This document shows, in pieces, positions 4,191-20,489 of a stretch of DNA of 64,000 nucleotides (position 1 is its first letter; the number at the start of each line of letters is the position of its first letter). Source of the stretch: Deltaproteobacteria bacterium GWA2_38_16. GTDB lineage: Bacteria > Bdellovibrionota > JACOXK01 > 2-02-FULL-40-11. A program made the translations under genes and the position numbers. The stretch lies in assembly GCA_001797335.1 (NCBI GenBank), contig MGPE01000006.1, positions 215,473 to 279,472 on the forward strand, read 5' to 3'. A model generated the notes under the pieces. That model was given only the letters and a program-made list of their open reading frames with translations. It searched no databases and was not told the DNA's origin.

Positions 4191-5258
<1,068 letters not shown>

Positions 5259-5287
5259 TTACAAGTAAAAATTACCTAGATTCTCTG

Positions 5288-5355
5288 TCATTCCCGCGAA
5301 TACACAAGTTAAAAAGTCTTGGTGATGACCTGCCCCCGATGAAGCTCTGGAATGA
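5288..5355. repeat. Imperfect inverted repeat in the mreB upstream region
   Basis: The 183-nt gap between mreB and the divergent ATPase gene holds TCATTCC (5288-5294) facing GGAATGA (5349-5355), with GCG beside the left arm. It resembles a worn REP-type element. Nearer mreB is the palindrome TTTTACAAGTAAAA (5257-5270), a possible mreB operator. Neither has a second copy here that would prove it. Confidence 0.3.
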
Positions 5356-5371
5356 AATTTTGAGATTAATC

Positions 5372-5401
5372 TTGACTAAGACCCAAAAATAATGGTAATA
5401 T
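5372..5401 (+). promoter_or_regulatory. Promoter of the DUF4143 ATPase-RNA ligase operon
   Basis: TTGACT (5372-5377), an 18-nt spacer, then TAATAT (5396-5401). Only 7 nt separate the -10 box from the GTG at 5409, so transcription should start on or next to the start codon, giving a leaderless mRNA. Confidence 0.55.
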
Positions 5402-5408
5402 TTGGGCC

Positions 5409-6569
5409 GTGTTCCAAAGATTAGCTAACATATCGAAATCACAGTCTTTTTTTCTATTTGGCGCAAGGGGAGTTGGAAAATCAACCCTTTTAGATCATTT
5501 CTTTATGCCCACTGAGAGAGTTTTATTTGATTTACTAGATTTTGAACTCTCCAATGAATTAGCCAGTTATCCCAATAACCTCCTCAAACGACTTACTCCT
5601 CATCATGGAAAGACTCCTTGGGTGGTCATTGACGAAGTACAAAAAGTGCCCCAGCTATTGGATCTGGTTCATAAACTGATCAAAGAGAAAAGTTTTAAAT
5701 TTGCCCTTACGGGTTCTAGCGCAAGAAAACTAAAACGAGGATCTGCAAACCTTCTTGCAGGCAGAGCTTTTGTTTACCATTTGTTCCCTCTGACCGTTTC
5801 TGAACTGGAAGATCAATTTTCTTTGGATGACGCTCTAAAATATGGGACATTGCCTCAAATTTTCGAACTGGAAAGCAATTCAGATAAGGCAGGATTTTTA
5901 AAAGCATACACAGAAACGTATCTTAAAGAGGAAATTATTACCGAACAAATTGTTCGAAATCTACCTCCCTTTCGTCGTTTTCTCGATGTTGCCGCACAGA
6001 TGAATACTAAAGTCATTAATTACTCTAATATTGCTAAAGATATTTTATCAGATCCTAAAACTGTTAGCGGATATTATGACATTTTGGAGGATACATTGCT
6101 TGGAATACGTTTGCCCGCCTACCATACATCCATTCGAAAGCAGCAAAAAAAAGCATCGAAGTTTTATCTCTTTGATACCGGCATAGCACGCACATTGGCA
6201 GGGCAAGTGGACTATGATTTGATTCCAAAGAGTTTTGAATATGGACAATTGTTTGAAGGATTTATTATCAATGAATTATATCGTCGACTTACCTACATGA
6301 ACAAACAATTTAAGCTTTCATTTCTTCGTGTTCAAGAAGATATGGAAATTGATTTAATCATTGAACGCGGTAAAAGTGCACCCACACTGATTGAAATCAA
6401 ATCTGCTGATAAGGTGGATGAACGACATGCAAAGGGTTTATTGACATTGGGACGTGATTTCAAATCATCAAAACAGTATCTGATCTCCAACGACCCTCAT
6501 AAAAAACAATTTTCTCAAGTTCTGGCTCTCCCTTGGAAAGAAGCCATTGAACTTATTATTGGGGACTGA
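5409..6569 (+). CDS. AAA ATPase with DUF4143 domain
   Basis: A P-loop ATPase of the AAA_14/DUF4143 type. Walker A is GARGVGKST (residues 18-26) and Walker B is VVIDEVQ (72-78). DUF4143 follows from about 165 to 330, with its typical YSNIAKDI, TVSGYYDILEDT and KFYLFDTGIARTLAG segments, and a nuclease-like EIDLIIERG...LIEIKS stretch closes the protein. Functions in this family are poorly known; such genes are scattered and mobile. The GTG start is the first in the frame and lies 7 nt after a -10 box. The RNA ligase fusion follows 3 nt downstream, so the two are almost certainly co-translated. Confidence 0.9.
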   Translation: MFQRLANISKSQSFFLFGARGVGKSTLLDHFFMPTERVLFDLLDFELSNELASYPNNLLKRLTPHHGKTPWVVIDEVQKVPQLLDLVHKLIKEKSFKFALTGSSARKLKRGSANLLAGRAFVYHLFPLTVSELEDQFSLDDALKYGTLPQIFELESNSDKAGFLKAYTETYLKEEIITEQIVRNLPPFRRFLDVAAQMNTKVINYSNIAKDILSDPKTVSGYYDILEDTLLGIRLPAYHTSIRKQQKKASKFYLFDTGIARTLAGQVDYDLIPKSFEYGQLFEGFIINELYRRLTYMNKQFKLSFLRVQEDMEIDLIIERGKSAPTLIEIKSADKVDERHAKGLLTLGRDFKSSKQYLISNDPHKKQFSQVLALPWKEAIELIIGD

Positions 6570-6572
6570 CAA

Positions 6573-7643
6573 ATGATTTATGAAATCGTTCTTAAGGTTG
6601 AAAAAAAGGTAGCCGGTAAATTTGCAAAATGGCTTCCAGAACATATAAAACAAGTTTTGGAATCACCCGGATTTAAATTGGCGCGCGTGGCTCGCCCACA
6701 ATCTGAGACCGAAAGTGACCACTTAAAGTGGGTCGTTCAATATGACATTGCCTCTAAAGAATATTTTGAATCCTACCTTAATGAACGGGCCCCGCAGATG
6801 CGTGCTCAAGCTGAGCAAGAGTTTGGAAACGCTCTCATCGCTACGCGTTGTGTTTATGATCCAGTTCAAGTGATAGAAAAATCAATTCCAAAGTCCGATC
6901 TTCTCATGTCAGATTTTCCCAAAGTCTATTGTCCCTTTATTCGACAAACATTTAAGGTAGACTCAAACCAGTGGAAAAAACTGGGGCAAAAACTTCAGTT
7001 GAGAAACCCCGAAGTCTATCTAGCTGTCAATCGGATCAATCCTGGATTTGAATGGGTGTTTGAAGACAAAGATACCTTCGCAGTCGAGAAGCTCCATGGC
7101 ACAAATGTTAAGATCTTACTTGAAAATGGAAAAGTTTTAGCGATTCAAAATAGAAAAAATATCATTGATCCTCTTCTCATTGCAAAAGGGCAAAATTTTA
7201 TTCTCGAAGGAATTTTAAATTCAGCTGCAAAGGGGGTCGTTCCCATGGATGGTGAATATGCCGGCGAAGTCATTGGCCCCAAACTCCAGGGAAATCCTTA
7301 CAAATTGGAGACTCATGAATGGTACCCCTTTGATCTTTCCATCACAAACTTAAGATATCGATCTTTTGATGAACATGACCGTAATTACCAGAATTGGAGC
7401 GCATGGTTCAAAGACCATCTCTATTCACGCCTTTTTACCAAACGTGCGTCAAAAAAGGGATCTGATGAAAAAGTTTTTGCAGAAGGTGTCATATTTTATA
7501 ATTTAAAACGAAAATCAGAAAGCAAAACTTGGATGGCAAAACTTCGAAGGGATATGTTCCCATGGTATTATGAAGGCATAGACATTCAAAATTTTGACCC
7601 TGCAGGCAGAGATAAAATAGAAAATCAGGAACAATTTGATTGA
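6573..7643 (+). CDS. DUF4286-RNA ligase fusion protein
   Basis: Two parts. Residues 1-100 look like DUF4286, a small ferredoxin-like domain (MIYEIVLKVEKKV..., ESYLNERAPQMRAQAEQEFG). Residues about 115-330 form a nucleotidyltransferase of the RNA ligase superfamily: motif I EKLHGTN with the likely adenylated lysine K173, motif III DGEYAGEVIG (226-235), motif IV EGVIFYN (304-310) and motif V with K323 in KTWMAKLRRD. All the catalytic motifs are there, so it should be able to self-adenylate and join or repair RNA ends. The substrate is unknown. It is translationally linked to the DUF4143 ATPase. The DUF4286 assignment is by pattern memory and less certain than the ligase. Confidence 0.8.
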   Translation: MIYEIVLKVEKKVAGKFAKWLPEHIKQVLESPGFKLARVARPQSETESDHLKWVVQYDIASKEYFESYLNERAPQMRAQAEQEFGNALIATRCVYDPVQVIEKSIPKSDLLMSDFPKVYCPFIRQTFKVDSNQWKKLGQKLQLRNPEVYLAVNRINPGFEWVFEDKDTFAVEKLHGTNVKILLENGKVLAIQNRKNIIDPLLIAKGQNFILEGILNSAAKGVVPMDGEYAGEVIGPKLQGNPYKLETHEWYPFDLSITNLRYRSFDEHDRNYQNWSAWFKDHLYSRLFTKRASKKGSDEKVFAEGVIFYNLKRKSESKTWMAKLRRDMFPWYYEGIDIQNFDPAGRDKIENQEQFD

Positions 7644-7669
7644 TGCAATCCAAGAAGGAATCAATTTAG

Positions 7670-7697
7670 TTGACATATAATCAATTTTGATTATAAT
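7670..7697 (+). promoter_or_regulatory. Consensus promoter with a palindromic operator in the spacer
   Basis: Perfect -35 TTGACA (7670-7675) and -10 TATAAT (7692-7697), 16 nt apart. The spacer is filled by the perfect palindrome ATAATCAATTTTGATTAT (7677-7694), which also enters the -10 box. A protein bound there would block RNA polymerase. The expected start site is near 7704, leaving about 13 nt before the ATG at 7717 and no Shine-Dalgarno. The nearby wHTH-MNT protein is the obvious candidate repressor. Confidence 0.7.
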
Positions 7698-7716
7698 TGT
7701 AATCATAATTGACTAT

Positions 7717-8298
7717 ATGAAGTTTTTATCTATAATTACCAAATCAAAAACAAGAAAGAGGCTATTTATATTGTTTTTTTCTAATCCAGAAAAAAAATAT
7801 TATTTACATGAGATAGCACGACTTATTGAATGCCCAGCTCAAAATATTCGACGAGATCTTTTGCCTTTTGTAAAAGATGAGGTTTTTAAAATGGAACGGG
7901 TAGGAAATCTTACCTTTTATTACCTTAATCAAGATTATCCTCTATATGAGGAATTAAAAAGTATTATTACCAAAACAGTAGGGATAGAGGCCCTTTTTAA
8001 GGGTGTTTTAAAAAATATATCTAATATTCAGGCAGCTTTTATTTTTGGTTCTTTTGCTGCGGATAAAGAAAGAGGGTCATCTGACATAGATCTTTTTATT
8101 TTAGGTGGGCCGGATAAAGATAGCCTGATTAAAGCAATTTCTGAATTAGAAAAAGAAATACACAGGGAAATTAATTATGTTATATACTCAAAAAAAATAT
8201 TTCAAAAAAAGAAAAAAGAATATAATAGTTTTATTGAGTCTATTATAAAAAATAAAAAGATTTTTTTAATAGGAAAGGAATCTGATCTTGAAAGATAA
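7717..8298 (+). CDS. Winged-helix/minimal nucleotidyltransferase (MNT antitoxin-like)
   Basis: 193 aa from the ATG at 7717; the longer frame from 7687 would start upstream of the expected transcription start. Residues 1-80 look like a winged helix (YYLHEIARLIECPAQNIRRDL). Residues 105-150 are an MNT-type nucleotidyltransferase: GSFAADKERGSSDIDLFIL with the metal-binding D123 and D125. The downstream gene is a HEPN protein overlapping by 11 nt, so this is the antitoxin half of a HEPN-MNT module; in studied pairs the MNT protein inactivates HEPN by adenylylating a tyrosine. The added DNA-binding domain suggests it also represses its own promoter. Confidence 0.82.
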   Translation: MKFLSIITKSKTRKRLFILFFSNPEKKYYLHEIARLIECPAQNIRRDLLPFVKDEVFKMERVGNLTFYYLNQDYPLYEELKSIITKTVGIEALFKGVLKNISNIQAAFIFGSFAADKERGSSDIDLFILGGPDKDSLIKAISELEKEIHREINYVIYSKKIFQKKKKEYNSFIESIIKNKKIFLIGKESDLER

Positions 8299-8758
8299 AA
8301 TTTCTCAATGGCTTGAAAAGAGGGAAATTAAGGAAGAAAAAGTTCACCCTAAAGATATTTGTAAATTATTACATCGATCCCTAAAAGATATTAAAGCTGC
8401 AAAAGATAATTTAGATTCTAATGAGGAGCTTTCTTATATGGCTGCTTATTTGGCAGTATTAAGAGCGGGGAGAGCCCTAATGTTTGCATATGGATATCGT
8501 CCTTCGGGAAATGCGCATCATAAAATGACATTTGAATTTTCTGAAGTTGTTTTGGGAAAAAGCTTCTCTCTTCTTGTAAATAAAATTAATGATATGCGAA
8601 AAAGAAGAAATCAATTTACGTATGATGTAGAATATATTGATTCTATTTCAGAGGATGAATCTAAATCATCCATTTCAGATGCTAATGAGTTCATTAAGGC
8701 CATCATTAGTTTTATTAAAAACCGTTGGCCCTTAGAGAGTGAATATAAAAAAATATAA
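8288..8758 (+). CDS. HEPN-domain protein (toxin half of HEPN-MNT pair)
   Basis: 156 aa, all-helical, starting at a TTG (8288) with AAAGGA about 8 nt upstream and overlapping the MNT gene by 11 nt. HEPN toxins are metal-independent RNases that act as dimers. The active-site region reads RKRRNQFTYD (104-113): an R-x4-Y form in place of the classic R-x4-H-x-Y. The missing histidine leaves open whether it cuts RNA or is only a partner. The central YLAVLRAGRALMFAYGY helix pair is typical of the fold. Confidence 0.75.
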   Translation: MKDKISQWLEKREIKEEKVHPKDICKLLHRSLKDIKAAKDNLDSNEELSYMAAYLAVLRAGRALMFAYGYRPSGNAHHKMTFEFSEVVLGKSFSLLVNKINDMRKRRNQFTYDVEYIDSISEDESKSSISDANEFIKAIISFIKNRWPLESEYKKI

Positions 8759-8800
8759 TTAGAGAAAAATTGCAGTTTTACTTTGACTTTTTTTAAGAGA

Positions 8801-8828
8801 ACGATACTCTCTTTTGGAGGGTATCGTG
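8801..8828 (+). promoter_or_regulatory. Hairpin enclosing the ribosome-binding site and start of the kelch gene
   Basis: ACGATACTCTC (8801-8811) pairs with GGAGGGTATCGT ending at 8827 to give an 11-bp stem with one T-G wobble and a 5-nt loop. The Shine-Dalgarno GGAGG (8816-8820) is in the 3' arm and the GTG start (8826-8828) is its last part. No T-run follows, so it is not a terminator. It would hold translation off until unfolded. Confidence 0.55.
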
Positions 8829-9983
8829 AAAAAAATCGTTGTGTTCTTAGGTGTTTTTATTTTCTTGGGGCCAGCTGCATTTTCAGGAATTCAAACTTTT
8901 TCGATGATCCAAAAAAGAACGATGCATCGAAGTATTTTATTACCCGATGGAAACGTTCTCATCACAGGAGGAGTGAGCAGTTTAAAACCCATCCCCTGGC
9001 CACTCGCTCATGCAGAATTATTTTTAGCCCATGAAAAAAAATTTATTTCTCTTCCCTCTATGAGATCTTCCCACGTAGATCACACACTGACTTCTTTATC
9101 CAATGGCACTGTCATTATTGCAGGGGGGAATCTGAGCCCTGAAATTGAGTTCTATGACACTCAAGAAGGAAACTTTAAATCTCTTAGGTCCCTACAATCA
9201 CCCCGCGCAGGACATACTGCACATGTGGTAAACGATAGAGAACTTTTTTTAATAGGAGGCTATAAAGTTAAAATTGGGCCTTTGGAAAAACACCTAGAAC
9301 TCATCCCCATGCCACAAATTCAGCCTTTAGGATTTTATGATATTATCTCTCTTAACCACTGTGAAGTGTATGATCTTCTTTCACAAATTTCTTCTTTAAT
9401 CCCCTTACCCACCTGGCTTCCCAAAATATCTTTTCATCGATCCCTGCAACTTCCTTCTGGAAATATTTTAATTTTTGGAGGGATGAGCGCCTGGAATAAA
9501 GTGGTTGAATTAGACGTAGCTACAAGAACATTTTCAATACGGGGATATTTGACTACCGCCAGAGAAGATGTCGCCCTTCTTCCTTTAGATGACCATCGTA
9601 TTTTAATCAGTGGGGGGACGAATGATCACCAACAATCTTTAACCTCTTTAGAAATTTTTGATCTACATACCAATACGTCCCAACTCTTAGGAGCAGAGCT
9701 TCACACTCCCAGAGAAGATCACACCATGGTTGCTATCCAAGAGGGCTATGTTTTAGTAGCTGGAGGGGAAATAACAGGGAAAACCAATGACCAAGATATT
9801 ATTTTAAACAGTGCAGAACTCATTAATATTGAAAAACCAGAGGTTATTGATTTAAAAGATTTTTTCTCACCAGCAAGATCTGACCACGAAGCAACAGTTC
9901 TTAAAGACCACAGTATCCTTTTTACAGGCGGAGAAGCTCCGAACAACACTATTTTAGACACTGCTAATTTAGTGAGATTTTAG
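8826..9983 (+). CDS. Secreted kelch-repeat beta-propeller protein
   Basis: 385 aa from the GTG at 8826, chosen because GGAGG lies 5 nt upstream and a Sec signal peptide (MKKIVVFLGVFIFLGPAAFSG) follows at once. A TTG four codons earlier lacks both. At least seven kelch motifs occur at about 50-residue spacing, each a hydrophobic strand ending in a double glycine: NVLITGG, TVIIAGG, ELFLIGG, NILIFGG, RILISGG, YVLVAGG, SILFTGG. That suggests a six- or seven-bladed propeller in the periplasm or outside the cell. No catalytic residues are recognised. It converges with the AbiEii gene, 5 nt away. Confidence 0.85.
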   Translation: MKKIVVFLGVFIFLGPAAFSGIQTFSMIQKRTMHRSILLPDGNVLITGGVSSLKPIPWPLAHAELFLAHEKKFISLPSMRSSHVDHTLTSLSNGTVIIAGGNLSPEIEFYDTQEGNFKSLRSLQSPRAGHTAHVVNDRELFLIGGYKVKIGPLEKHLELIPMPQIQPLGFYDIISLNHCEVYDLLSQISSLIPLPTWLPKISFHRSLQLPSGNILIFGGMSAWNKVVELDVATRTFSIRGYLTTAREDVALLPLDDHRILISGGTNDHQQSLTSLEIFDLHTNTSQLLGAELHTPREDHTMVAIQEGYVLVAGGEITGKTNDQDIILNSAELINIEKPEVIDLKDFFSPARSDHEATVLKDHSILFTGGEAPNNTILDTANLVRF

Positions 9984-9988
9984 TAAAT

Positions 9989-10759
9989 CTAGTGGCGCCT
10001 TAGTTTTTTGATGGCCTTAATGAGATCTTTAAGAGGAGGAGTGGGTTGGTTTTCAAGATAGAACCTAAGGCTAGAAATAAGTTCTTTTTGAAAGCAAACC
10101 AATTTTTCATAAATATCCATAGCAGAAACCAGAGGGTCTAGGGAAAAATTGCAAGACTCTGGATTTAACTTGGTTCCGGAGAGGACTAAAAGTATTGCTT
10201 CGCCATTAACTCCGCCATCGATCTTTTGGCCTGCTTCAATAAGTTTTTGAAGATTTAAATCTGGATCTTGATCCAATAGCCACAGAAGATCATAAAGATC
10301 TTTTTCACCACAACGACTCACCAATGTAGATGCTTTCATCATCAATAGAGTTTGGGGTAAAACCACACAAATCCCATTAGGCAATGTTTCAAAATCACCC
10401 GTCTGCCCAATTTGAAAGAAGTGTTCATCACATACGATATCAATTGTAAAAGAATGATTTTTAAAAACACACACCGCTTTATAATATTGAAGCGTTTGAA
10501 ACTCATAGGTAAACTTTACGCCCAAAGATACCAGGGATTTGGCTGCAAGGACGGCTGCTTTTTGGGAATCCAGATCTTTTGTGAATAAATCTAAATCATC
10601 AGATCTTCGATGCCCTGCATAAAAACCCGATAAAGCCGTTCCTCCAACCAGAACAAGGCCTGGAATATGTTGCTTAAAAAAATACTCCAGACATTGATAT
10701 AAGGCAGCTGGTAAAGTCTTTTTTGCTAATTCAAGGTTTGGTCTTGCACTAAATGCCAT
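9989..10759 (-). CDS. AbiEii/DUF1814-type nucleotidyltransferase (toxin-like)
   Basis: 256 aa. The nucleotidyltransferase signature is VGGTALSGFYAGH...RRSDDLDLF, with D55 and D57 as likely metal ligands, and the family's second hallmark KDLYDLLWLL follows near residue 155. AbiEii proteins are the toxin component of type IV toxin-antitoxin and abortive-infection systems. The start overlaps the upstream HTH gene by 34 nt, so the two form one module. The partner is not a recognisable AbiEi, so the pair is a variant arrangement. Confidence 0.82.
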   Translation of the reverse strand: MAFSARPNLELAKKTLPAALYQCLEYFFKQHIPGLVLVGGTALSGFYAGHRRSDDLDLFTKDLDSQKAAVLAAKSLVSLGVKFTYEFQTLQYYKAVCVFKNHSFTIDIVCDEHFFQIGQTGDFETLPNGICVVLPQTLLMMKASTLVSRCGEKDLYDLLWLLDQDPDLNLQKLIEAGQKIDGGVNGEAILLVLSGTKLNPESCNFSLDPLVSAMDIYEKLVCFQKELISSLRFYLENQPTPPLKDLIKAIKKLRRH

Positions 10760-11235
10760 AATTGCTCACTTTGTTTTTGTCGAATAGGGGGTAAATATTT
10801 TTTGTATTTTGGGAAAAGAGTCCAAATACTTTTTCCCACCATATTTTTAGATTGAAATAAACCATACACTTCCACTAAACGACTTAACGCTCTAGGCTTA
10901 TGTTGCACCAAAGCAATCACAAAATCTTCCAAAGAGGGATAAAGATGATCCCACAGAAGAGAAGCCGTAAGAGATGTTTTCTGAGGGGTATCTTGGCTCA
11001 GAGGAAGAGAGGTCATCAAATCATCCACCTTTAAATGAAGAGCCAAGGCAAGCGATTGAAGATGCTTGCTTTGAACACTAATGGTTGTGTCATCTTTTTG
11101 GAACCCCTTTTTTTGAAACCCCCTTTTTTGAAACCATAGACAAACCGCCTGTTTTGAAACATGCGCCATTCTAGCAAGCTCAGACCGTGATAAATGGCGA
11201 AGCCTAGAAATAACCCTTAAAACATTTATATTCAC
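10726..11235 (-). CDS. HTH protein, putative antitoxin/repressor of the AbiEii-like gene
   Basis: 169 aa with an N-terminal XRE-like helix-turn-helix (SRSELARMAHVSKQAVCLWF, residues 16-35). The loop after the recognition helix contains three tandem copies of a five-residue unit (FQKRG, FQKKG, FQKDD), encoded by alternating T and C runs. The rest, about 75-169, is helical and not recognised. The GTG start lies 6 nt from a strong -10 box on the same strand, which implies leaderless translation. Overlap with the AbiEii-like gene suggests an antitoxin that also controls the operon. Confidence 0.7.
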   Translation of the reverse strand: MNINVLRVISRLRHLSRSELARMAHVSKQAVCLWFQKRGFQKKGFQKDDTTISVQSKHLQSLALALHLKVDDLMTSLPLSQDTPQKTSLTASLLWDHLYPSLEDFVIALVQHKPRALSRLVEVYGLFQSKNMVGKSIWTLFPKYKKYLPPIRQKQSEQLWHLVQDQTLN

Positions 11236-11241
11236 AATAAT

Positions 11242-11280
11242 ATTATACTTATTAACCTTAAAAAGTCAAGTTTAGTTGAC
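11242..11280 (-). promoter_or_regulatory. Promoter of the HTH-AbiEii operon
   Basis: Minus-strand TTGACT (11269-11264), 16-nt spacer, TATAAT (11247-11242); the GTG start is at 11235, so the transcript should begin at or beside it. A short dyad, GTCAA (11265-11269) facing TTGAC (11276-11280), overlaps the -35 box and could be the operator. Confidence 0.65.
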
Positions 11281-11326
11281 CGCTAATAACTATAGTGATG
11301 AAAAACGAAAGAGAAACCATATGGTA

Positions 11327-11376
11327 CATAAATACATATTTATGTTTTATTGTATTTATGTATTGACATAAATACA
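11327..11376 (+). promoter_or_regulatory. Four-half-site operator upstream of the RHH-MazF operon
   Basis: Two inverted repeats share one half-site. CATAAATACATATTTATG (11327-11344) is a perfect 8-2-8 palindrome. TGTATTTATG (11351-11360) and CATAAATACA (11367-11376) form a perfect 10-bp dyad around TATTGA. In all, CATAAATA occurs four times in alternating orientation. Ribbon-helix-helix antitoxins bind such repeated half-sites cooperatively. An AGGAG (11381-11385) follows before the ATG. Confidence 0.7.
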
Positions 11377-11397
11377 GCCAAGGAGTACCCTTAGATT

Positions 11398-11622
11398 ATG
11401 AAAAGAAAGAGTTTCAAGATAACCATAGATCTTATGGATCAAAATCTTTATGAGCTTTTAAAATTAGAGGCTGTTCGCCAACACTCTATGAAACAGGTGA
11501 TTCATAATGCTTTAAAGCTTTATTTTGAAGATCGCCTTGAAACATTCACGTTGGCCGAAGCAGCTAAAAAAGCATTTTCAGAGTGGGAAAATCCGCTAGA
11601 TTCTGACTATGACAAACTATAG
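11398..11622 (+). CDS. Ribbon-helix-helix antitoxin of a MazF/PemK-type pair
   Basis: 74 aa. The first 48 residues fit a ribbon-helix-helix DNA-binding domain: a basic strand (KRKSFKITIDL) then two helices (LYELLKLEAVRQ, MKQVIHNALKLYFED). The C-terminal tail, ending EWENPLDSDYDKL, is the sort of flexible segment that binds MazF. It overlaps the toxin gene by 14 nt and lies behind an array of four operator half-sites, so it probably represses its own operon. Confidence 0.83.
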   Translation: MKRKSFKITIDLMDQNLYELLKLEAVRQHSMKQVIHNALKLYFEDRLETFTLAEAAKKAFSEWENPLDSDYDKL

Positions 11623-11956
11623 TTTTCCTGATATTGTTTTGGTTCCATTTCCTTTTACAGATCAAATAACTATTAAAAAACGCCCTGTTCTTATTTTAAA
11701 TAGTTCAGATTTTTCAAATCGCACACCCCTCATTATTGCCAGCATGATCACAAGTTCTCTTACTCCACTGTGGCCCGGAGATTATATACTCAAAGAATGG
11801 GAAAAATGTGGGCTCTTACATCCTTCAAAAATTCGGTTGGGAAAAATCGTAACATTAGAAACAGACATTATCTTAAAAAAATTAGGCTCTCTCCCCTCTC
11901 CAGAAATATCAAAAATAAAAAAAATATTTAAAGATGTATTTTCTGCTATGGCTTAA
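11609..11956 (+). CDS. MazF/PemK-family endoribonuclease toxin
   Basis: 115 aa with the PemK-like N-terminus (DIVLVPFPFTD) and the KKRPVLIL strand containing the conserved arginine, followed by IIASMITSS, where the family has its catalytic Thr/Ser. Members cleave mRNA at short sequence motifs when the labile antitoxin is lost. It overlaps the RHH antitoxin gene. Length and motif order are normal, so the toxin looks intact. Confidence 0.87.
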   Translation: MTNYSFPDIVLVPFPFTDQITIKKRPVLILNSSDFSNRTPLIIASMITSSLTPLWPGDYILKEWEKCGLLHPSKIRLGKIVTLETDIILKKLGSLPSPEISKIKKIFKDVFSAMA

Positions 11957-11995
11957 CTATATTGAAATACACAAAGAATGGCTTTCATGTTTATT

Positions 11996-14869
11996 TTAAC
12001 GTTCAATCACATGTCGAATAAATTGAGAATGTACATCTTTTCCCACTTCATTTATCCAATCATCTTTTGTAAACATATTCGTTACAGTACTTGTATACGT
12101 AACAAACATCATGTCACTGTCTTCATAAGTATCAGTGGTTCCATAATGATACACATTGTAATGAAGCACATTATTATCTGAATTAATTACTCGTCCGAAT
12201 TGCCCTACTCCTTTAAGAATATCAATAAGTTCTTGTCGCCCTATGGACTTACCATAATGATAAAATCGTCCCCCTCCATTAGCAAAACTTAAAACCACAT
12301 TTCCCGTAATTTCAAAGGTCGAAGTAGATTTGCCATCTAAAGGCAATACAAAGGCAATTGGGATATTTTGAAATACATTATTTTTAAAAGATCGAATACC
12401 ATGATCACCCTCATAGATAAAAACCCCTGTCCCAGGACTATCAAAACAATTATTTAAAACCTCGATCTTTCCTCCATTAACATGGTCAATAGAAATTCCT
12501 CTTGGCATTGTACCAGTAAAAACATTGTTTTGAATTTTAATATTATGGCTATTTTCTCCTATTTGAATTCCTTGCCAAATACCCTGAGTTTGAAATGTAA
12601 ACCCATGAATAATAAGATTAGACATATTAATACCAAATCCTGCAGGACGATTGCCTCCAGGTCCATTAATTTTAGGAGAAAATGTGGGACGTGCTCGAAT
12701 AATTAAGGAGGCATTTTGGTCGGCTGTTGTTTTCTGAATAACATGATTTAAAACATAAGTCCCATTATCTTGAACTTCAATAATTCGAGGGCTCCTAAGA
12801 TTAGTTGGCACAGCATCAATAGCATTTTGGAGATCATTAAACCGTGTAGCACAGCCCGCAGGCATATCTTTTGCCACCAATAAAATATCAGGAGCATCTT
12901 CATTACATTGCTTTTCTGTATAAAGATGTGTTTCCCTCCCCGGCAAAAGAAGTTTTTCAAAGCCATCACATTGTGTAATAACACCGCCTCCGCCCCCGCT
13001 ACCTGCAGGAGGAGTTAATACAACACTAAATTCTCCATTGGCATTTCCCTGTCCAAGAACAGAATTTAAACGAACAATGGCCTCTGTACGCTTTGTAAGA
13101 TAGGGGGCCCTAATGACTACAGAAAGAGAGCCGTTAGCATCTGTTTGAATTTGTATTCCTTCTCGCATGAGATTCACATCTTGAAAAGAATCAATAAAAA
13201 TTGATCTTTCAGGACTATAAATATCAAACTGCTTTCCCGCTTCTACCGCTCGATTATTACCATCTTTTACAGGCTGACTTATAATAGTCATCGTGCTAAC
13301 ACCGTCTCCCACCAATGTATAAGATCCTTCAAAATCAATGCTACCACTCGGCATACCAGGTTGGCCTTGGGAGGGGGCTTTAGAAAATGGAAGGGCAAGT
13401 AGCGTTGTTTGCCCATCATTAGAAGTTACGGTCACCGTCGAAGTGCTATCAATAGTATCATTAACATTAGATTTAAGTTGAAATGACAGCATACTCTCAG
13501 CATTGGGTTTAATTTGAATTCCATCTTTAGAAGTATCTTGATCAGAGGTTAAAATAGTTCCCAAACTAGAGGCTATCGTAAAAAATATTCCTGACTGATC
13601 TGTAATCAAAACCCCTTCAGAATTAGTAATAGCGCTACTCGTAATAAGAGACTGGGTTTGCCCATCGGAAATAAGAGGCGAAGGAAAAGCAGATAAAGTA
13701 AAAGAAGAAAGAGCTCCTAAGCGGGTAGTAATTCGTGCCTGTGAATTTAAACTTCCACTGTTGGCTATCAACGTGAGAGTTCCTGTTTTTAGTGTTTTTA
13801 ATAAAAATAATTGCTGCCCTAAATTGGTTACCACCCCATCTGAAGCATTAAGCCCACTAAAGGTCACTGCACTCACCGGAACTTTAAATCCATCTAAATC
13901 TCGTCCAATGACTTTTATAAAAACAGACTCTCCCGTTAAAATATCTGCCCCAAAATAAGCTTCTTGAGGAGTGGCAAAACTTCTTACAAAATCAGAGGCC
14001 CCTTTTGAAATTCCATTGGTTGTGCGAGTAATAGCTTCTTGATCTTTCCCTTGGGAAGATCCATCGGAAACAGTAAGACGATCCACAAGCACACCCAAAG
14101 AATCTTCTAAAACAAGATCAGCATTATTTTTGGGAATCGCCTGTGCTAAATTTCGAATGACTAAAAATTCTCCTCCATTTAACTTTTCACCTTCTGATCC
14201 AATTTCATAGAGCACCTGTTCAGATAATTTAATTTTCCATCCTTGAACATTCATCATTTGATCTGTAGCATTATAAAGTTCCACCCATTGACTTTGATTG
14301 TCTTTAGGATCAATGATCACTTCATTTAAAACAACTTTTGGATCCCTATTAGCCAATAAAGGAAGCGTTACCGCTAATTGGATTTCTGACAATACCCCCG
14401 CTGTTTTAATTTGTACCTCTACAGGCTCTTGAAGTTTATTGCCCTCGATATCTATTACATCCGTTGTAATCTTAACCAAATAAACCATGCCTGATTCAAG
14501 AGGGGTCAAAGGGGTTACGGTAAAATCTTTACCACTGTTACCCAATTCTATTTTTCGATCTACTTCAGTATTGTTGGTTAAATTTAATAAAAGAATATTG
14601 CTGAGGGTGATGGTTTCAGGCTTTAATCCCTTAGTACTGATAAATAAAATATTCACCCGACTGGGCACCCGATAAATAGGCTTATTATCTAACACAGAAA
14701 TTTGGCTTACCGAATTAGGCAAGAAAGAAGATCCTGAGACGCTATCTTGAAATCCACTTAAAATCACCCCAAATGCCCCTGCCACAGGAGCTAAGCTTCC
14801 GCCCCCTTTCTCCCCTCCGCAGGAAAACAATAAAGGAAATAACCATAATAATAAATAAACTCTTTTCAT
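11996..14869 (-). CDS. Large lipoprotein with lamin-tail, Ig-like and beta-helix regions
   Basis: 957 aa. The lipobox LLFSC puts the lipidated Cys at residue 17. After a Gly-rich linker there is an Ig-like region (about 55-150), a lamin-tail domain (about 165-290: VVLNEVIIDP...WVELYNATDQ...VQGWKI), further Ig/invasin-like segments to about 620, a Gly-rich linker, then a right-handed beta-helix (about 690-880) with repeats such as NIKIQNNVFTG and KIEVLNNCFDS. It is a surface-exposed protein of unknown role; beta-helices of this kind often bind or cleave polysaccharide, but no catalytic residues are identified. A TATAAT lies at 14916-14911 on this strand. Confidence 0.78.
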   Translation of the reverse strand: MKRVYLLLWLFPLLFSCGGEKGGGSLAPVAGAFGVILSGFQDSVSGSSFLPNSVSQISVLDNKPIYRVPSRVNILFISTKGLKPETITLSNILLLNLTNNTEVDRKIELGNSGKDFTVTPLTPLESGMVYLVKITTDVIDIEGNKLQEPVEVQIKTAGVLSEIQLAVTLPLLANRDPKVVLNEVIIDPKDNQSQWVELYNATDQMMNVQGWKIKLSEQVLYEIGSEGEKLNGGEFLVIRNLAQAIPKNNADLVLEDSLGVLVDRLTVSDGSSQGKDQEAITRTTNGISKGASDFVRSFATPQEAYFGADILTGESVFIKVIGRDLDGFKVPVSAVTFSGLNASDGVVTNLGQQLFLLKTLKTGTLTLIANSGSLNSQARITTRLGALSSFTLSAFPSPLISDGQTQSLITSSAITNSEGVLITDQSGIFFTIASSLGTILTSDQDTSKDGIQIKPNAESMLSFQLKSNVNDTIDSTSTVTVTSNDGQTTLLALPFSKAPSQGQPGMPSGSIDFEGSYTLVGDGVSTMTIISQPVKDGNNRAVEAGKQFDIYSPERSIFIDSFQDVNLMREGIQIQTDANGSLSVVIRAPYLTKRTEAIVRLNSVLGQGNANGEFSVVLTPPAGSGGGGGVITQCDGFEKLLLPGRETHLYTEKQCNEDAPDILLVAKDMPAGCATRFNDLQNAIDAVPTNLRSPRIIEVQDNGTYVLNHVIQKTTADQNASLIIRARPTFSPKINGPGGNRPAGFGINMSNLIIHGFTFQTQGIWQGIQIGENSHNIKIQNNVFTGTMPRGISIDHVNGGKIEVLNNCFDSPGTGVFIYEGDHGIRSFKNNVFQNIPIAFVLPLDGKSTSTFEITGNVVLSFANGGGRFYHYGKSIGRQELIDILKGVGQFGRVINSDNNVLHYNVYHYGTTDTYEDSDMMFVTYTSTVTNMFTKDDWINEVGKDVHSQFIRHVIER

Positions 14870-14975
14870 CGCATACGTTCCACTATTAAAGAATTTTACT
14901 GATATTTTTAATTATACCCCAAAAACGCGTTCATAAAACAAAAAATTTTATCTTAGCAAAAGCTTTAATGATTTT

Positions 14976-17606
14976 TTAATGAAACAGCTTCTGCAGGTTT
15001 TGTTCGAGTTTTTGTTTTTTGGATTGAAGGTCAGAAAGACGATCTCGTTCTTTTTGAACAATGTCTTTGGGGGCGCGTTCAATAAAGGCTTCATTCGAAA
15101 GGCGGGTTTGAAGCCCGACCAAATCGGTATTAATTTTTTCTAGTTCTTTTTGAAGACGTTTTTTTTCTTCTTCCACATCCACTAGATCTGTGATGGGAAT
15201 AAAAACATCTAAAAATCCCAGGGCCCCTACCGCCATATTTTTAGCTTCCATCGCTTTTTCAGAAAAGTGAAGCTCTGAAAGTTTCGCTAATGTTTGAAGA
15301 GCCACTTCATTTCTCTTCAGTATCTCTAAGACCTTTGTATCTTTAGAGACAAGGGTTGCAGAAATAAGTTTTGAGGGAGAAACCGTATGCTCTCCTCTGA
15401 CATTTCGAATGTAAGAAATAATTTCTTTAAGCATTTCAATTTCTTTTGTGGCTTTTGGATGAATGTATTTTTTATTAAATTTTGGATAAGAAGCCATCAT
15501 GATACTTTCTTCTTCATGAATGGGTAAATGATGCCCCAGCTCTTCCGTTACAAAGGGAATAAAAGGATGCAAAAGTTTTAAAAGCTCTTTTAAAACAAAA
15601 ATTAATATTTGCTGAGCCTCTTTCTTTTGAGAAGGGTCTTTAAGAAGAGGCTTAATAAATTCCACATACCAGTCACAAAATTCATGCCAGGTAAAATGAT
15701 AGACCGTATTGGCGGCTTCATTGAGTTCATACCTTTCTAAATGATCATTTGTCTTTTTCACCGTCAAAAAAAATTGAGATAAAATCCAGGCATGGACAGG
15801 AGAAAGATGCTTAGGAAGATTTTTCTCAAGTTTAAAATCCGGTTCTACATTCATTAAAGCAAAACGCGTGGCATTCCATATTTTATTAATAAAATTTCTA
15901 TACCCTTCAATGCGATCTTCTGAAAGTTTGACATCTCGCCCTTGGGTTGCCAAAGCCGCTAAAGTAAATCTGAGCGCATCAGCCCCATATTCTGCAATCG
16001 TATCCAAAGGATCAATCACATTGCCTTTAGATTTACTCATCTTTTTTCCTTCGGTGTCTCGCACCATGGCATGAAGATAGACATATTTAAAAGGCGGCTT
16101 TTTCATAAAATGAATGCCCATCATCATCATCCGAGCCACCCAGAAAAATAAAATATCAAATCCCGTTTCCATAACAGTAGACGGGTAAAAAACTTTTAAA
16201 TCTGCGGTTTTTTGTGGCCAGCCGAGTGTTGAAAAAGGCCAAAGCGCTGAACTAAACCACGTATCTAAAACATCTGTATCTTGAGAGATATCGGTACTCT
16301 TACATTTTTGGCACTGGGTAGGATCTTTCACAGAAACGGTAATGTGTTGGCAATGCTTACAATACCACGCAGGGATTCGATGCCCCCACCAAATTTGGCG
16401 CGAAATACACCAATCTTTAATATTTTCCATCCAGTTAAAATAGGTTTTAGCCCAACCCGAAGGAATAATTTTTACGTTCCCTTTTCGAACGGCCTCGATA
16501 GCGGGTTTGGCCAGGGGCCTGGTTTTAACAAACCATTGAGTTGAAAGATGAGGCTCTAAAACTGTATCGCATTTCTCACAGTGTCCCAATAACACCGTAT
16601 AGTCTTCTTCTTTTTCTATGACTCCTTGGGCTATTAAATCCGCTAACACTTTCTTACGGGCAGCAAAGCGATCAAGTCCTTGATAGGGAAAAGCCTTTTC
16701 ATTTGTTTTTGCATTTTTATCGAAGATAGAAATAACTTCTAGTTGATGACGTTTCCCCACTTCAAAATCATTAAAATCATGTCCCGGCGTAATCTTTACA
16801 GCACCCGAACCAAATTTTGGATCGGCATAGAGGTCTGCAATAATAGGAATTTTTCGGGTTGTTAAAGGAAGACATACATATTTACCCACCCAAGACTTAT
16901 ACCGAGGGTCTTTGGGATGAACCGCTACGGCTGTATCTCCGAGCATGGTTTCAGGACGCGTCGTTGCAACGATAATAGTTCCACTGCCATCTTCCAGCGG
17001 ATATTTTAAATGCCAAATTTTTCCGGGTTTTTCAACTTGCTTTACTTCTAAATCTGACAGGGCCGATTCACACCGAGGGCACCAGTTAATAAGATAATCC
17101 CCTCGATAAATCAGCTTTTCTTGATAAAGACGGACAAAGACTTCTCTTACCGCATGAGATAAGGTTTCATCCATCGTAAAATGTTCTCGGGTCCAATCAC
17201 ACGAACTTCCAAAGCGTTTAATTTGCATGATAATGGTTCTTCCATACTGCTCTCTCCACTGCCATACCCGCTCAATAAATTTTTCTCTTCCAAAAGCATG
17301 CCGAGTAATTCCTTCTTTAAGTAGGGCTTTTTCTACGACGGTTTGAGTGGCAATGCCGGCATGATCCGAACCTGGAAGCCAGAGCGTATTAAACCCCGCC
17401 ATTCGTTTCCATCGAATCAGAACATCTTGAATAGTAGAAGTCAGGGCATGCCCCTGGTGAAGCGCTCCGGTGATATTGGGAGGAGGCATCATAATAACAA
17501 AAGGCTTTTTCTTGGATTTATTATTGGCTGTAAAATAGCCCCTTTTTTCCCAAAACTCGTACCACTTTTCTTCAATATCTTTGGGGTTATAATGCTCTAA
17601 AGTCAT
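14976..17606 (-). CDS. valS: Valyl-tRNA synthetase
   Basis: Class I synthetase charging tRNA-Val, 876 aa (family about 870-950). The HIGH motif appears as HQGH in PPNITGALHQGH, KMSKS is intact (KKMSKSKGNVIDP), the CP1 editing domain carries TTRPETMLGDTAVAVHP, and WWGHRIPAWYC and the zinc-binding Cys pairs are present. The C-terminal 70 residues form the usual coiled coil that clamps the tRNA. Monocistronic here. Confidence 0.98.
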   Translation of the reverse strand: MTLEHYNPKDIEEKWYEFWEKRGYFTANNKSKKKPFVIMMPPPNITGALHQGHALTSTIQDVLIRWKRMAGFNTLWLPGSDHAGIATQTVVEKALLKEGITRHAFGREKFIERVWQWREQYGRTIIMQIKRFGSSCDWTREHFTMDETLSHAVREVFVRLYQEKLIYRGDYLINWCPRCESALSDLEVKQVEKPGKIWHLKYPLEDGSGTIIVATTRPETMLGDTAVAVHPKDPRYKSWVGKYVCLPLTTRKIPIIADLYADPKFGSGAVKITPGHDFNDFEVGKRHQLEVISIFDKNAKTNEKAFPYQGLDRFAARKKVLADLIAQGVIEKEEDYTVLLGHCEKCDTVLEPHLSTQWFVKTRPLAKPAIEAVRKGNVKIIPSGWAKTYFNWMENIKDWCISRQIWWGHRIPAWYCKHCQHITVSVKDPTQCQKCKSTDISQDTDVLDTWFSSALWPFSTLGWPQKTADLKVFYPSTVMETGFDILFFWVARMMMMGIHFMKKPPFKYVYLHAMVRDTEGKKMSKSKGNVIDPLDTIAEYGADALRFTLAALATQGRDVKLSEDRIEGYRNFINKIWNATRFALMNVEPDFKLEKNLPKHLSPVHAWILSQFFLTVKKTNDHLERYELNEAANTVYHFTWHEFCDWYVEFIKPLLKDPSQKKEAQQILIFVLKELLKLLHPFIPFVTEELGHHLPIHEEESIMMASYPKFNKKYIHPKATKEIEMLKEIISYIRNVRGEHTVSPSKLISATLVSKDTKVLEILKRNEVALQTLAKLSELHFSEKAMEAKNMAVGALGFLDVFIPITDLVDVEEEKKRLQKELEKINTDLVGLQTRLSNEAFIERAPKDIVQKERDRLSDLQSKKQKLEQNLQKLFH

Positions 17607-17771: not shown

Positions 17772-18692
17772 ATGGCACAAAAAGCGTTGGCACAAAATAT
17801 GCGTAAGAAAAAGAGTGTGAGTCATCACATCCTTTTAGTTGGACTAAAGACAACCCTTTCAAAAGTTGTTCAAAACGGATTACAAGAAGACGATTTTATT
17901 CTTCACGAGGAATTCGATCTTACGAAAGCCTTAAAAGCCATCGCCAGGCTTGATATTTCTTTGGTTGTCTTAGATCAAGATACCTATATCACCGAAGAAA
18001 GCTTAGAATTTTCTAAACGATGTACTTCCGTTATTAGTCATCCTTCCGTCATTTTGCTTACGGAAAATACGTCTATTGATCACCTGCGGCTTCTTTTTCA
18101 ACACAAAGTTCATGATTGTTTGATAAAACCTTTTAAAATGTCTGAGCTCTTTGATTCCATCAAACGAGGGCTCGAATATCGCCAAACCCATATTTATGGA
18201 GTGAAAGATGCCTTGACCGGTCTTTATAATCGATATGCATTTAAAGAAATTCTCCGTCAAGAAATCGAAAGAGCCCAGCGATATGATCGCCACTTGTCTC
18301 TTCTCATGATCGACATTGACCATTTTAAACGTGTTAACGACATGTTTGGTCACCTCATCGGAGACCATATCTTAGAAGAACTTTCCCGCGTTATTCAATC
18401 TGCTTTTAGAAAAACAGACACTATTGCTCGGTTTGGAGGAGAAGAGTTTTCCATTATTCTTCCAGAAACAACCGTTGGTCATGCCACATTGCTTGCTGAA
18501 CGGATTCGCAAAAAAATAGAAGGGCATGATTACTCTCGTTTTATTAAAAAAGAAAGACTTACGGTGAGTATTGGAATTTCAAATTATCACACGCCCGGCA
18601 GAAAAAGCGACATCACTCTTATCCACTCTGCCGACCAGGCTCTGTATACAGCTAAAAAAGAAGGACGCAATAAAGTTGTTCTTTCCCGCTAA
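17772..18692 (+). CDS. Diguanylate cyclase with degenerate receiver domain
   Basis: 306 aa from the ATG at 17772. Residues about 18-130 have a response-regulator fold with D68 and the conserved K119, but the paired acidic residues near the N-terminus are missing (ILLVGLKT), so the receiver may not bind Mg2+ normally. Residues 140-306 form a GGDEF domain with an intact GGEEF (222-226) and an RxxD product-inhibition site five residues before it (R213, D216). It should make c-di-GMP with feedback control. Two DUF2279 genes follow with overlapping ends. Confidence 0.88.
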   Translation: MAQKALAQNMRKKKSVSHHILLVGLKTTLSKVVQNGLQEDDFILHEEFDLTKALKAIARLDISLVVLDQDTYITEESLEFSKRCTSVISHPSVILLTENTSIDHLRLLFQHKVHDCLIKPFKMSELFDSIKRGLEYRQTHIYGVKDALTGLYNRYAFKEILRQEIERAQRYDRHLSLLMIDIDHFKRVNDMFGHLIGDHILEELSRVIQSAFRKTDTIARFGGEEFSIILPETTVGHATLLAERIRKKIEGHDYSRFIKKERLTVSIGISNYHTPGRKSDITLIHSADQALYTAKKEGRNKVVLSR

Positions 18693-19590
18693 AAAATCGG
18701 CATGTGTTGTTATTTCTTTTTATTTTCTTTTAACCATATCATTTCCTCTTTACGCTCAATCCAGCACTCCCCTTCCTTCAGAAACCATTAAAAAAAGTAT
18801 CCCCTACTCTCCGCTCGTAAAATGGACAGCCGTAGGCATTATACCCACTGTTATTTTAAGTTATGGATTTTTAGCATGGTGGAGACACGGTTTTACTAAA
18901 AAATTCTATTTTGATGATAAAGAAGGGTTTTTTGGAGCCAGCAGTTATTCTGGTGGTTCAGATAAAATAGGCCATTTATTTTCAACATATTATTTTTCAA
19001 AAATATTAAATGAATTTCTCTTGAGCTCAGGAGAAAGCAAAGAAAATTCTCTTTTATATAGCACATTAACTGTTGGGATACCTTTTACATTCATAGAAGT
19101 ATTAGATGGATTCATGCCATCATATGGGGCGGGATTATGGGACATGGTTTTTAATGCGGGGGGACTGGCTTTCAATTATGCAGAACAAAAATCTCCCCTA
19201 TTTAATCGCATGTTTAATTTAAGTCTATCCTACTGGCCCAGCGATCAATTTAAAAAAGAATTTAATGACCATTTAAACTTTTCAGAAGATTATAGTGGCA
19301 TGACTTATCATCTTGATTTTAATGTTATGCAATTATTTGATTTTGGAAAATTCAACTTATTAGGTCATCTACCCAACATAAGTGCTTCTTTTCACACAAA
19401 AGGATTTAGACCCAAGGAAGTATATCCCATGCTGGAATATTCTCTGGGATTGGGAATCGATGTGAGTTCATTAATGGATCGATATCCCTTCTGGAAAGAG
19501 GTTTTTTCGAGCATAAAAATTATCCCCATGCTCACTCTTTACAATAAAAAATATTATTATACGACTATCAATGGAGTAAGAAGATTATAA
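18676..19590 (+). CDS. DUF2279-like exported protein, copy 1
   Basis: 304 aa from a TTG at 18676, which has AAGGA upstream, overlaps the GGDEF stop by 17 nt, and begins a Sec signal peptide (MFFPAKKSACVVISFYFLL...YAQ). The core GGSDKIGHLFSTYYFSKI...EVLDGFMPSYGAGLWDMV matches the DUF2279 pattern (DKxGH and DGF...YG...D). It has another hydrophobic segment near residue 55 and probably sits in or at the envelope. Function is unknown. The next gene is a close paralogue, so the pair arose by tandem duplication. Co-transcription with a c-di-GMP synthase hints at envelope or surface control, which is inference. Confidence 0.75.
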   Translation: MFFPAKKSACVVISFYFLLTISFPLYAQSSTPLPSETIKKSIPYSPLVKWTAVGIIPTVILSYGFLAWWRHGFTKKFYFDDKEGFFGASSYSGGSDKIGHLFSTYYFSKILNEFLLSSGESKENSLLYSTLTVGIPFTFIEVLDGFMPSYGAGLWDMVFNAGGLAFNYAEQKSPLFNRMFNLSLSYWPSDQFKKEFNDHLNFSEDYSGMTYHLDFNVMQLFDFGKFNLLGHLPNISASFHTKGFRPKEVYPMLEYSLGLGIDVSSLMDRYPFWKEVFSSIKIIPMLTLYNKKYYYTTINGVRRL

Positions 19591-20489
19591 AATTTATAAA
19601 AAATATTTCATTTTATCTCTTCATCCTTTTTTTCTTTCTTAGCTTTCATAGCCCTCTTTTGGCACAAACAGAAACCACAGCCCTTAAAACTACTCCCTTT
19701 TTAAAATGGACAACGTTAAGTGCTATTCCCGTTGGTCTTTTGGGGCATGGATTTATTGCTTGGTGGCGTCATGGGCTATCCCCAAAATTTAGATTAGATG
19801 AAAAAGAAGGGTTTTTTGGAGCTAGCAGTTACTCTGGAGGATCTGACAAATTAGGCCACCTGTTTGCCAATTGCTTTATTTCAAAATTAACGACCGATGT
19901 TTTGATTTCCGCTGGTGAAAACAAAGACAATGCTCTTTTATATAGCTCACTAGTAACCGGCATATCGTATACTCTGGTAGAGGTATTTGATGGTTTTCTG
20001 CCCAGTTATGGGGCGGGGCTATGGGATATGGTTTTTGATGTTGGGGGTATTGCTTTGAATTTCGCTGAAAAAAAATACCCTACGTTTGATCAGCTCTTTA
20101 ATTTTAGTGCTTCTTATTGGCCAAGCCCAACTTTTATAGACCTACCCACTCACAATAATTTTTCAGAAGATTATAGCGGCATAACGTATTACGCTGATTT
20201 TAATTTCATGCGTCTTATGAATTTTGGAACCTTAAATACCCTGGCTCATTTACCACAATTTAGCCTTGCTTTTCACACCCAAGGGTTTAGTCCTCGTGAA
20301 CAACAGCTCACTACAGAATATTCTTTAGGGCTAGGCATAGATATGGTTCCTCTGATTGAACGGTGGTATAATCGCCCATACTTAAAAGATATTTTTTCAT
20401 CCATCAAAATTATTCCCATGTGGGCACTTTATACTAAAAAATATCACTATATTCGTGATGCCGAAGGCGGCAGGATTAGAAGATTATAG
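19584..20489 (+). CDS. DUF2279-like exported protein, copy 2 (apparent AUU start)
   Basis: 301 aa if it starts at ATT (19584). The frame opens after a stop at 19545, and the first ATG, GTG or TTG is a TTG at 19659, already past the signal peptide. GGAG (19573-19576) stands 7 nt before the ATT and the start overlaps the previous stop by 7 nt. The residues then encoded, IKFIKNISFYLFILFFFL...LLAQ, form a classic Sec signal ending where copy 1's does. The core GGSDKLGHLF...EVFDGFLPSYGAGLWDMV is nearly identical to copy 1. The TTG at 19659 would leave the protein without an export signal. Confidence 0.72.
   Translation: MIKFIKNISFYLFILFFFLSFHSPLLAQTETTALKTTPFLKWTTLSAIPVGLLGHGFIAWWRHGLSPKFRLDEKEGFFGASSYSGGSDKLGHLFANCFISKLTTDVLISAGENKDNALLYSSLVTGISYTLVEVFDGFLPSYGAGLWDMVFDVGGIALNFAEKKYPTFDQLFNFSASYWPSPTFIDLPTHNNFSEDYSGITYYADFNFMRLMNFGTLNTLAHLPQFSLAFHTQGFSPREQQLTTEYSLGLGIDMVPLIERWYNRPYLKDIFSSIKIIPMWALYTKKYHYIRDAEGGRIRRL

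Follow-up and report, generated by a model that had tools for sequence, protein, structure and literature searches.

Can a DUF4143 ATPase and an RNA ligase that are encoded three nucleotides apart be regarded as one RNA repair or defence module, and what would the ligase be for? The question is raised by a locus in the window, i.e., the whole stretch of 64,000 nucleotides of Deltaproteobacteria bacterium GWA2_38_16 that was analysed, in which an ATPase gene is followed by a gene joining a DUF4286 domain to an RNA ligase (Table 1). The first-pass annotation had read the pair as an ATPase-coupled RNA-repair module. We think that an RNA-repair role of the ligase is supported, on the grounds of its fold, its motifs and the phage tRNA arrays in which relatives are found, whereas the coupling to the ATPase does not.

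Table 1. Positions of the gene pair, its domains and motifs, and the toxin-antitoxin genes that follow it in the window
Feature	Position	Strand	Details and basis
AAA ATPase with DUF4143	5409..6569	+	386 aa, GTG start
Fusion gene, DUF4286 + RNA ligase	6573..7643	+	356 aa, ATG start; single open frame, Pfam
DUF4286 domain, residues 1-104 (Pfam match 1-92)	6573..6884	+	Pfam 1.3e-17
RNA ligase domain, residues 112-356	6906..7640	+	Alignments, AlphaFold model, fold matches
Motif I K173 (EKLHGTN), predicted adenylylation site	7089..7091	+	Invariant, 52 relatives
Motif Ia R194, predicted ribose contact	7152..7154	+	Nearly invariant, 52 relatives; role by analogy (PMC11494293)
Motif III E232 in GEVIGPKLQGNP	7266..7268	+	Invariant, 52 relatives
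Motif IV E304 (AEGVIFY)	7482..7484	+	Invariant, 52 relatives
Motif V K323 (AKLRRDM)	7539..7541	+	Invariant, 52 relatives
MNT nucleotidyltransferase + HEPN pair, type VII toxin-antitoxin-like, directly downstream of ligase	7687..8758	+	Pfam Polbeta 1.3e-11, HEPN 1.4e-7; PADLOC candidates PDC-M05A/B
AbiEii-type nucleotidyltransferase + upstream HTH-like gene, possible partner	9989..11235	-	Pfam AbiEii 1.3e-11; HTH gene weak matches only
Small antitoxin-like gene + PemK/MazF-like toxin	11398..11956	+	Pfam PemK 6.3e-13; small gene without match

The two genes and their domains

The arrangement of the pair had been read correctly from the letters alone: both genes lie on the same strand and the ATPase gene stops 3 nt ahead of the ligase gene (6569/6573). 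The fusion protein matches DUF4286 (PF14114) over residues 1-92 with 64.3 bits (cut-off 25.8, E 1.3e-17), in agreement with the DUF4286-like stretch of about 100 N-terminal residues proposed earlier, and RNA_ligase (PF09414) over residues 171-314 with 30.2 bits (cut-off 27, E 6.1e-7); the ligase domain alone scores 31.2 bits against the latter. The ATPase gene product matches DUF4143 (E 9.6e-32) and AAA_14 (E 2.8e-24). Since the DUF4286, RNA_ligase and ATPase-domain matches all exceed the curated Pfam cut-offs, they are well beyond chance.

Besides these Pfam matches, the ATPase presents a Walker A motif (GARGVGKS) and a Walker B motif (VIDE), as is proper of the DUF4143/AAA_14 ATPases, and in PADLOC it is matched by a candidate family only, PDC-S01 (5e-62). 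Its C-terminus carries a feature that was missing from the first-pass annotation, an intact PD-(D/E)XK-like signature (E283, E313-x-D315, E329-x-K331) that is invariant in an alignment of seven sequences. In the model of the ATPase (pLDDT 85) residues 278-360 are ordered as a helix, three strands, a helix and a strand, which fits an alpha-beta3-alpha-beta core; the VIA-align result for the protein spans residues 1-270 only, with the nuclease-like part lying outside it. The signature, together with the expected order of helices and strands, suggests that the ATPase may be a nuclease as well.

The ligase half was judged by the presence of motifs I (KxDG or KxHG), Ia, III, IV and V with their catalytic residues, which identify an ATP-dependent RNA ligase, and all of them are found. 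The earlier description of a complete RNA ligase with motif I K173 and motifs III, IV and V is thereby confirmed. Across 52 relatives, K173, E232, E304 and K323 do not vary. The AlphaFold model reaches a pLDDT of about 90-98 over most of residues 111-350 and about 97 in the core. RNA ligases occupy the top ranks of the fold search made with it, as is expected for the nucleotidyltransferase fold, and the ligase domain passes the check on a nucleotide pocket that had been proposed along with the module. The best Foldseek match is RLIG1 of Yasminevirus (9c6l/9c6m, E 2.7e-6; Z 11.0, 2.9 A over 164 residues). NgrRnl (Z 11.2), T4 Rnl2 (Z 11.0) and TbREL1 (Z 10.4) score similarly, and archaeal Rnl3 (5d1o, Z 8.2) scores below RLIG1, NgrRnl and Rnl2. 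Within a library of viral structures, the top matches came from Cellulophaga phage phi10:1 and Yasminevirus proteins.

The DUF4286 half retains Y3, E4, H24, G33, Y57, Y68, A73, F84 and R92, all invariant in 13 sequences. Residues 1-110 of the fusion protein were modelled without homologues in the alignment, mostly with a pLDDT of 46-68. Among 368 genomes searched in the same phylum, some 40 besides that of the window have DUF4286, usually encoded on its own with a length of about 100 aa. The ligase lacks the domain in all nine complete copies of other genomes; the copy of a tenth genome, a sister from the same family with 86% identity, breaks off at residue 211, where its contig (JAHFEZ010000053.1) ends. 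The fusion was found in none of the more than 90 related ligase loci besides the window gene, and a search for DUF4286 relatives in phages gave no match. The only other confirmed ligase fusion in the cellular set bears a glyoxalase-type domain in front and belongs to a distant relative (L040:6671-7954/L117), likewise in a single genome. The DUF4286-ligase fusion is real and unusual, and it has so far been seen once.

The open-access literature offered nothing useful on the function of DUF4286 or DUF4143. A fused domain often works together with its neighbour, and for this reason the fusion gives a functional lead on DUF4286, the first one in this analysis; our guess is that the domain could serve for pairing of the ligase or for recognition and positioning of the substrate. 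Where DUF4286 is encoded alone (L045, L048, L049, L054 and similar loci), its recurrent neighbours are a long gene, identified in L045 and L048 as the glycine dehydrogenase gene gcvP, and a gene for a coiled-coil-like product of about 180-195 aa; this neighbourhood is conserved.

Relatives of the ligase and their genomic neighbours

When genomes were scanned with the full-length protein alone, nothing was found; detecting relatives required an alignment of the ligase half. Within the 368 genomes of the phylum, the ligase half (residue ~105 to the end) is present in 10 others, with 55-67% identity in nine of them and 86% in the tenth. Scanning the genomes of 84,980 species with the ligase-half alignment yielded 92 loci. 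Most of these show 50-69% identity, and most belong to uncultured lineages. The ligase is usually encoded on its own, with a length of about 250 aa. In a tree of 52 sequences, built as a quick tree with many weak forks, the window protein falls within a 34-row clade covering 17 labelled phylum-level groups. The phylum labels change 25 times on this tree, compared with a mean of 25.7 when shuffled, which amounts to no phylum signal and suggests that the ligase family was spread by gene transfer among bacterial phyla.

Relatives are also found on 32 viral contigs, eight of which carry ligases 52-63% identical to that of the window, and some of the neighbours of viral ligases match phage structural families. 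In three of these eight contigs (L138, L139 and L141) a tRNA gene is found at a distance of 20, 20 and 7 nt from the ligase gene, respectively, in records that hold 20-27 tRNAs; random placement yielded three contigs so close to tRNA genes in 0 of 200,000 trials, to be read with the caution that the phages behind the three arrays may not be wholly independent of each other. A CCA-adding enzyme and RlaP, an RNA-repair nucleotidyltransferase, are encoded just upstream of the ligase in L141, with an HD protein just downstream, and in L138 another RNA ligase and a metallophosphoesterase are encoded near the ligase. Jumbo phages counter host tRNA cleavage with RNA-repair sets of this sort (PMC7824862). 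In the more distant viral relatives (L155-L166), the next gene downstream is often metallophosphoesterase-like (164-195 aa), as it is in two sister bacterial loci (L064:6774-7355, L095:3792-4373); it is a candidate end-healing partner. No linkage to tRNA genes was found for the bacterial copies, that of the window included.

The window gene lies in a gap between mreB and valS (5234-14976) that contains the ATPase, the ligase, three toxin-antitoxin modules, a kelch-type gene and the gene of a 957-aa protein. In related genomes the interval between mreB and valS is short; it is either without any recognised gene or occupied by a kelch-type gene or by a relative of the 957-aa protein. Contents that differ in this way between genomes point to a variable spot that gathers accessory genes in this family of bacteria. 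Further along the window (18571-20489) there are two adjacent, similar genes for predicted membrane or outer-membrane proteins of 339 and 276 aa, which probably arose by tandem duplication. The three toxin-antitoxin modules announced by the first-pass annotation were all recovered with Pfam and PADLOC (MNT/HEPN, AbiEii and PemK). To its view that several of them would cut RNA we add the correction that AbiEii-type toxins are nucleotidyltransferases and do not cut RNA.

MNT-type nucleotidyltransferase genes, one of which adjoins the ligase in the window, make up 4 of 99 immediate neighbours of bacterial ligases (L085, L097, L105 and L108), and in L097 they flank the ligase on both sides. Their density near ligases is about 1 per 41-55 kb, against 1 per 250 kb in the window genome, a rough comparison with an unmatched baseline. 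A gene that would regularly accompany the ligase in bacteria was also looked for, and the idea was rejected: beyond MNT and the one metallophosphoesterase pair (L064/L095), no family recurs.

Proposed function and alternative readings

We consider it fairly probable that the window encodes a minimal ATP-dependent ligase that has been widely transferred and likely re-joins tRNAs, that its DUF4286 domain was gained once, and that the ATPase is not its dedicated partner. The occurrence of close relatives across many phyla and in phage tRNA arrays leads us to infer that the ligase probably re-joins broken tRNAs. It would act on 5'-phosphate/3'-hydroxyl breaks, most likely in tRNA or similar structured RNAs, that ribotoxins or anticodon nucleases would have introduced. 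AMP from ATP would be loaded onto K173 and then handed on to the RNA, at the 5'-phosphate of the break, which attack by the 3'-OH would close. DUF4286, a free protein elsewhere, has been joined in frame to the ligase N-terminus in this lineage, and the upstream ATPase and predicted nuclease may share a transcript with the ligase.

Cleavage by HEPN and MazF/PemK toxins yields ends with a 2',3'-cyclic phosphate and a 5'-OH, which a classical ligase cannot seal unaided; cyclic-phosphate ends from toxins of this type would have to be healed before the ligase could seal them. It also speaks against our reading that no end-healing kinase or phosphatase adjoins the ligase, cmk being the genome's best kinase match, and that the window genome has no RlaP. 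The absence of RtcB speaks in its favour. In a genome without RtcB, RlaP or a recognised dedicated end-healing kinase, the ligase may be the main RNA-sealing enzyme.

That the two genes act together, with the AAA ATPase/PD-(D/E)XK protein sensing or cutting and the ligase repairing or modifying RNA in defence, is a reading that we find quite unlikely, even if the strand and the 3-nt gap speak for it and the ATPase resembles the candidate defence family PDC-S01. Only one of the other DUF4143 genes in the genome has a same-strand gene 40 nt or less downstream, and this rarity of close spacing means that the pair may be co-transcribed here, which would be unusual. The two-gene order, however, recurs in none of the related loci, and the module fails the co-occurrence check that had been proposed along with it: the order is seen in none of the nine complete relatives of the same phylum (the tenth being cut by the contig end) and is absent from the wider set of more than 90 related ligase loci. 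A DUF4143 ATPase does occur within 6 kb of the ligase in about 8 of roughly 70 related loci, but order, strand and distance differ in all of them, and about 4-5 such neighbours are predicted by chance in the 613 kb examined. This expectation derives from the 14 DUF4143 ATPases of the 2.0-Mb genome, an unusually high number (most relatives of similar size have 9-20), so that some ATPase near a ligase is to be expected by chance. Moreover, ftsK is the neighbour of the ligase in the sister genome with 86% identity; in the window genome ftsK is located on another contig, with no ligase adjoining. A conserved ATPase-ligase operon was rejected on account of the neighbourhoods of relatives and this base rate. 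The ATPase is rather a separate, very common accessory gene and probably not a dedicated partner of the ligase.

The fusion itself could be incidental, the ligase and DUF4286 not cooperating, or a working ligase being made from the internal start M112. This residue aligns with the start positions of stand-alone homologues, the fusion is seen once, and the glyoxalase-type fusion of the same ligase in a distant relative (L040/L117) implies that such fusions may be casual. We nevertheless judge an incidental fusion unlikely, as the invariant residues of DUF4286 are kept, the reading frame is intact and no obvious ribosome-binding site precedes M112. Very unlikely, in our opinion, is a ligase that makes or processes RNA instead of repairing damage, e.g., by circularisation as described for archaeal Rnl3 (PMC12153264). 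A weak resemblance to TIGR01209/PAB1020 favours such a role, but RLIG1, NgrRnl and Rnl2 match the fold better than Rnl3 does, and neither the phage context of tRNA arrays and RlaP/CCA genes nor the patchy, transferred distribution agrees with it.

A tRNA-rejoining ligase thus remains the reading that we prefer. RLIG1 is an animal ligase, a compact tRNA-repair-type enzyme recently found in humans. A bolder extension, which we regard as rather doubtful, is that the family constitutes its transferred prokaryotic counterpart, repairing tRNAs in phages and damage by toxin-antitoxin systems or anticodon nucleases in bacteria, with DUF4286 as a new recognition or pairing domain. If our preferred reading is right, phage tRNA arrays and many bacterial phyla without cultured members contain a compact tRNA-repair-type ligase of the RLIG1 kind, providing a directly testable case of cell and phage survival against RNA-cutting toxins. 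A mobile family of tRNA-repair-type ligases common to phages and many bacterial phyla is new and better supported than the two-gene module.

Relation to known ligase systems

As for the upstream gene, it is a clear member of the DUF4143/AAA_14 (PDC-S01) group, whose members are very common and stand beside unrelated genes. The sets of T4 Pnkp-Rnl1 and jumbo phages (ligase, RlaP, CCA enzyme and tRNAs) resemble those in which the near viral relatives of the ligase sit, whereas the window gene is apart from tRNAs and repair partners.

Rnl3 is an archaeal ligase linked to the HARP RNase P. The window protein matches its model (TIGR01209) weakly, with 21.5 bits against a cut-off of 136.9, and the fold score is lower, as noted above; near the window gene no HARP-like gene was noticed. 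With Rnl2/PF09414 (T4 Rnl2, TbREL1, NgrRnl) the likeness is greater, since the window ligase passes the curated Pfam cut-off and gives Z values of about 10-11, but it has neither an OB domain nor the Rnl2 C-terminal domain, and it obtains 14.3 bits against the NCBIfam Rnl2 model (TIGR02307), for which the cut-off is 197.

RLIG1/C12orf29 (PF17720) shares with the window ligase the minimal architecture of a nucleotidyltransferase only and provides its best Foldseek matches. Stretches around YL..N..NPG and GPK-Q-NP-L-H are common to the two, and 20 of 52 members of the window ligase's family match PF17720 weakly (best E 9e-6). The relatives that were scored singly lie under the 25-bit cut-off (best 22.0 bits), and the window protein gives no match at E up to 1. 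A PF17720 scan of 290 genomes of the phylum returned no matches, but the control genomes were silent too, which makes this negative uninformative. The window protein differs also in carrying DUF4286. The published RLIG1 study (PMC11494293), in which homologues of Yasminevirus, of a phage and of a bacterium were cloned, reports the joining of tRNA halves in vitro by several homologues of bacterial or viral origin. Given that PF09414 is passed and the cut-offs of Rnl2, Rnl3 and RLIG1 are not, we think that the window encodes an RLIG1-like or Rnl2-like minimal ligase that stands outside those named families.
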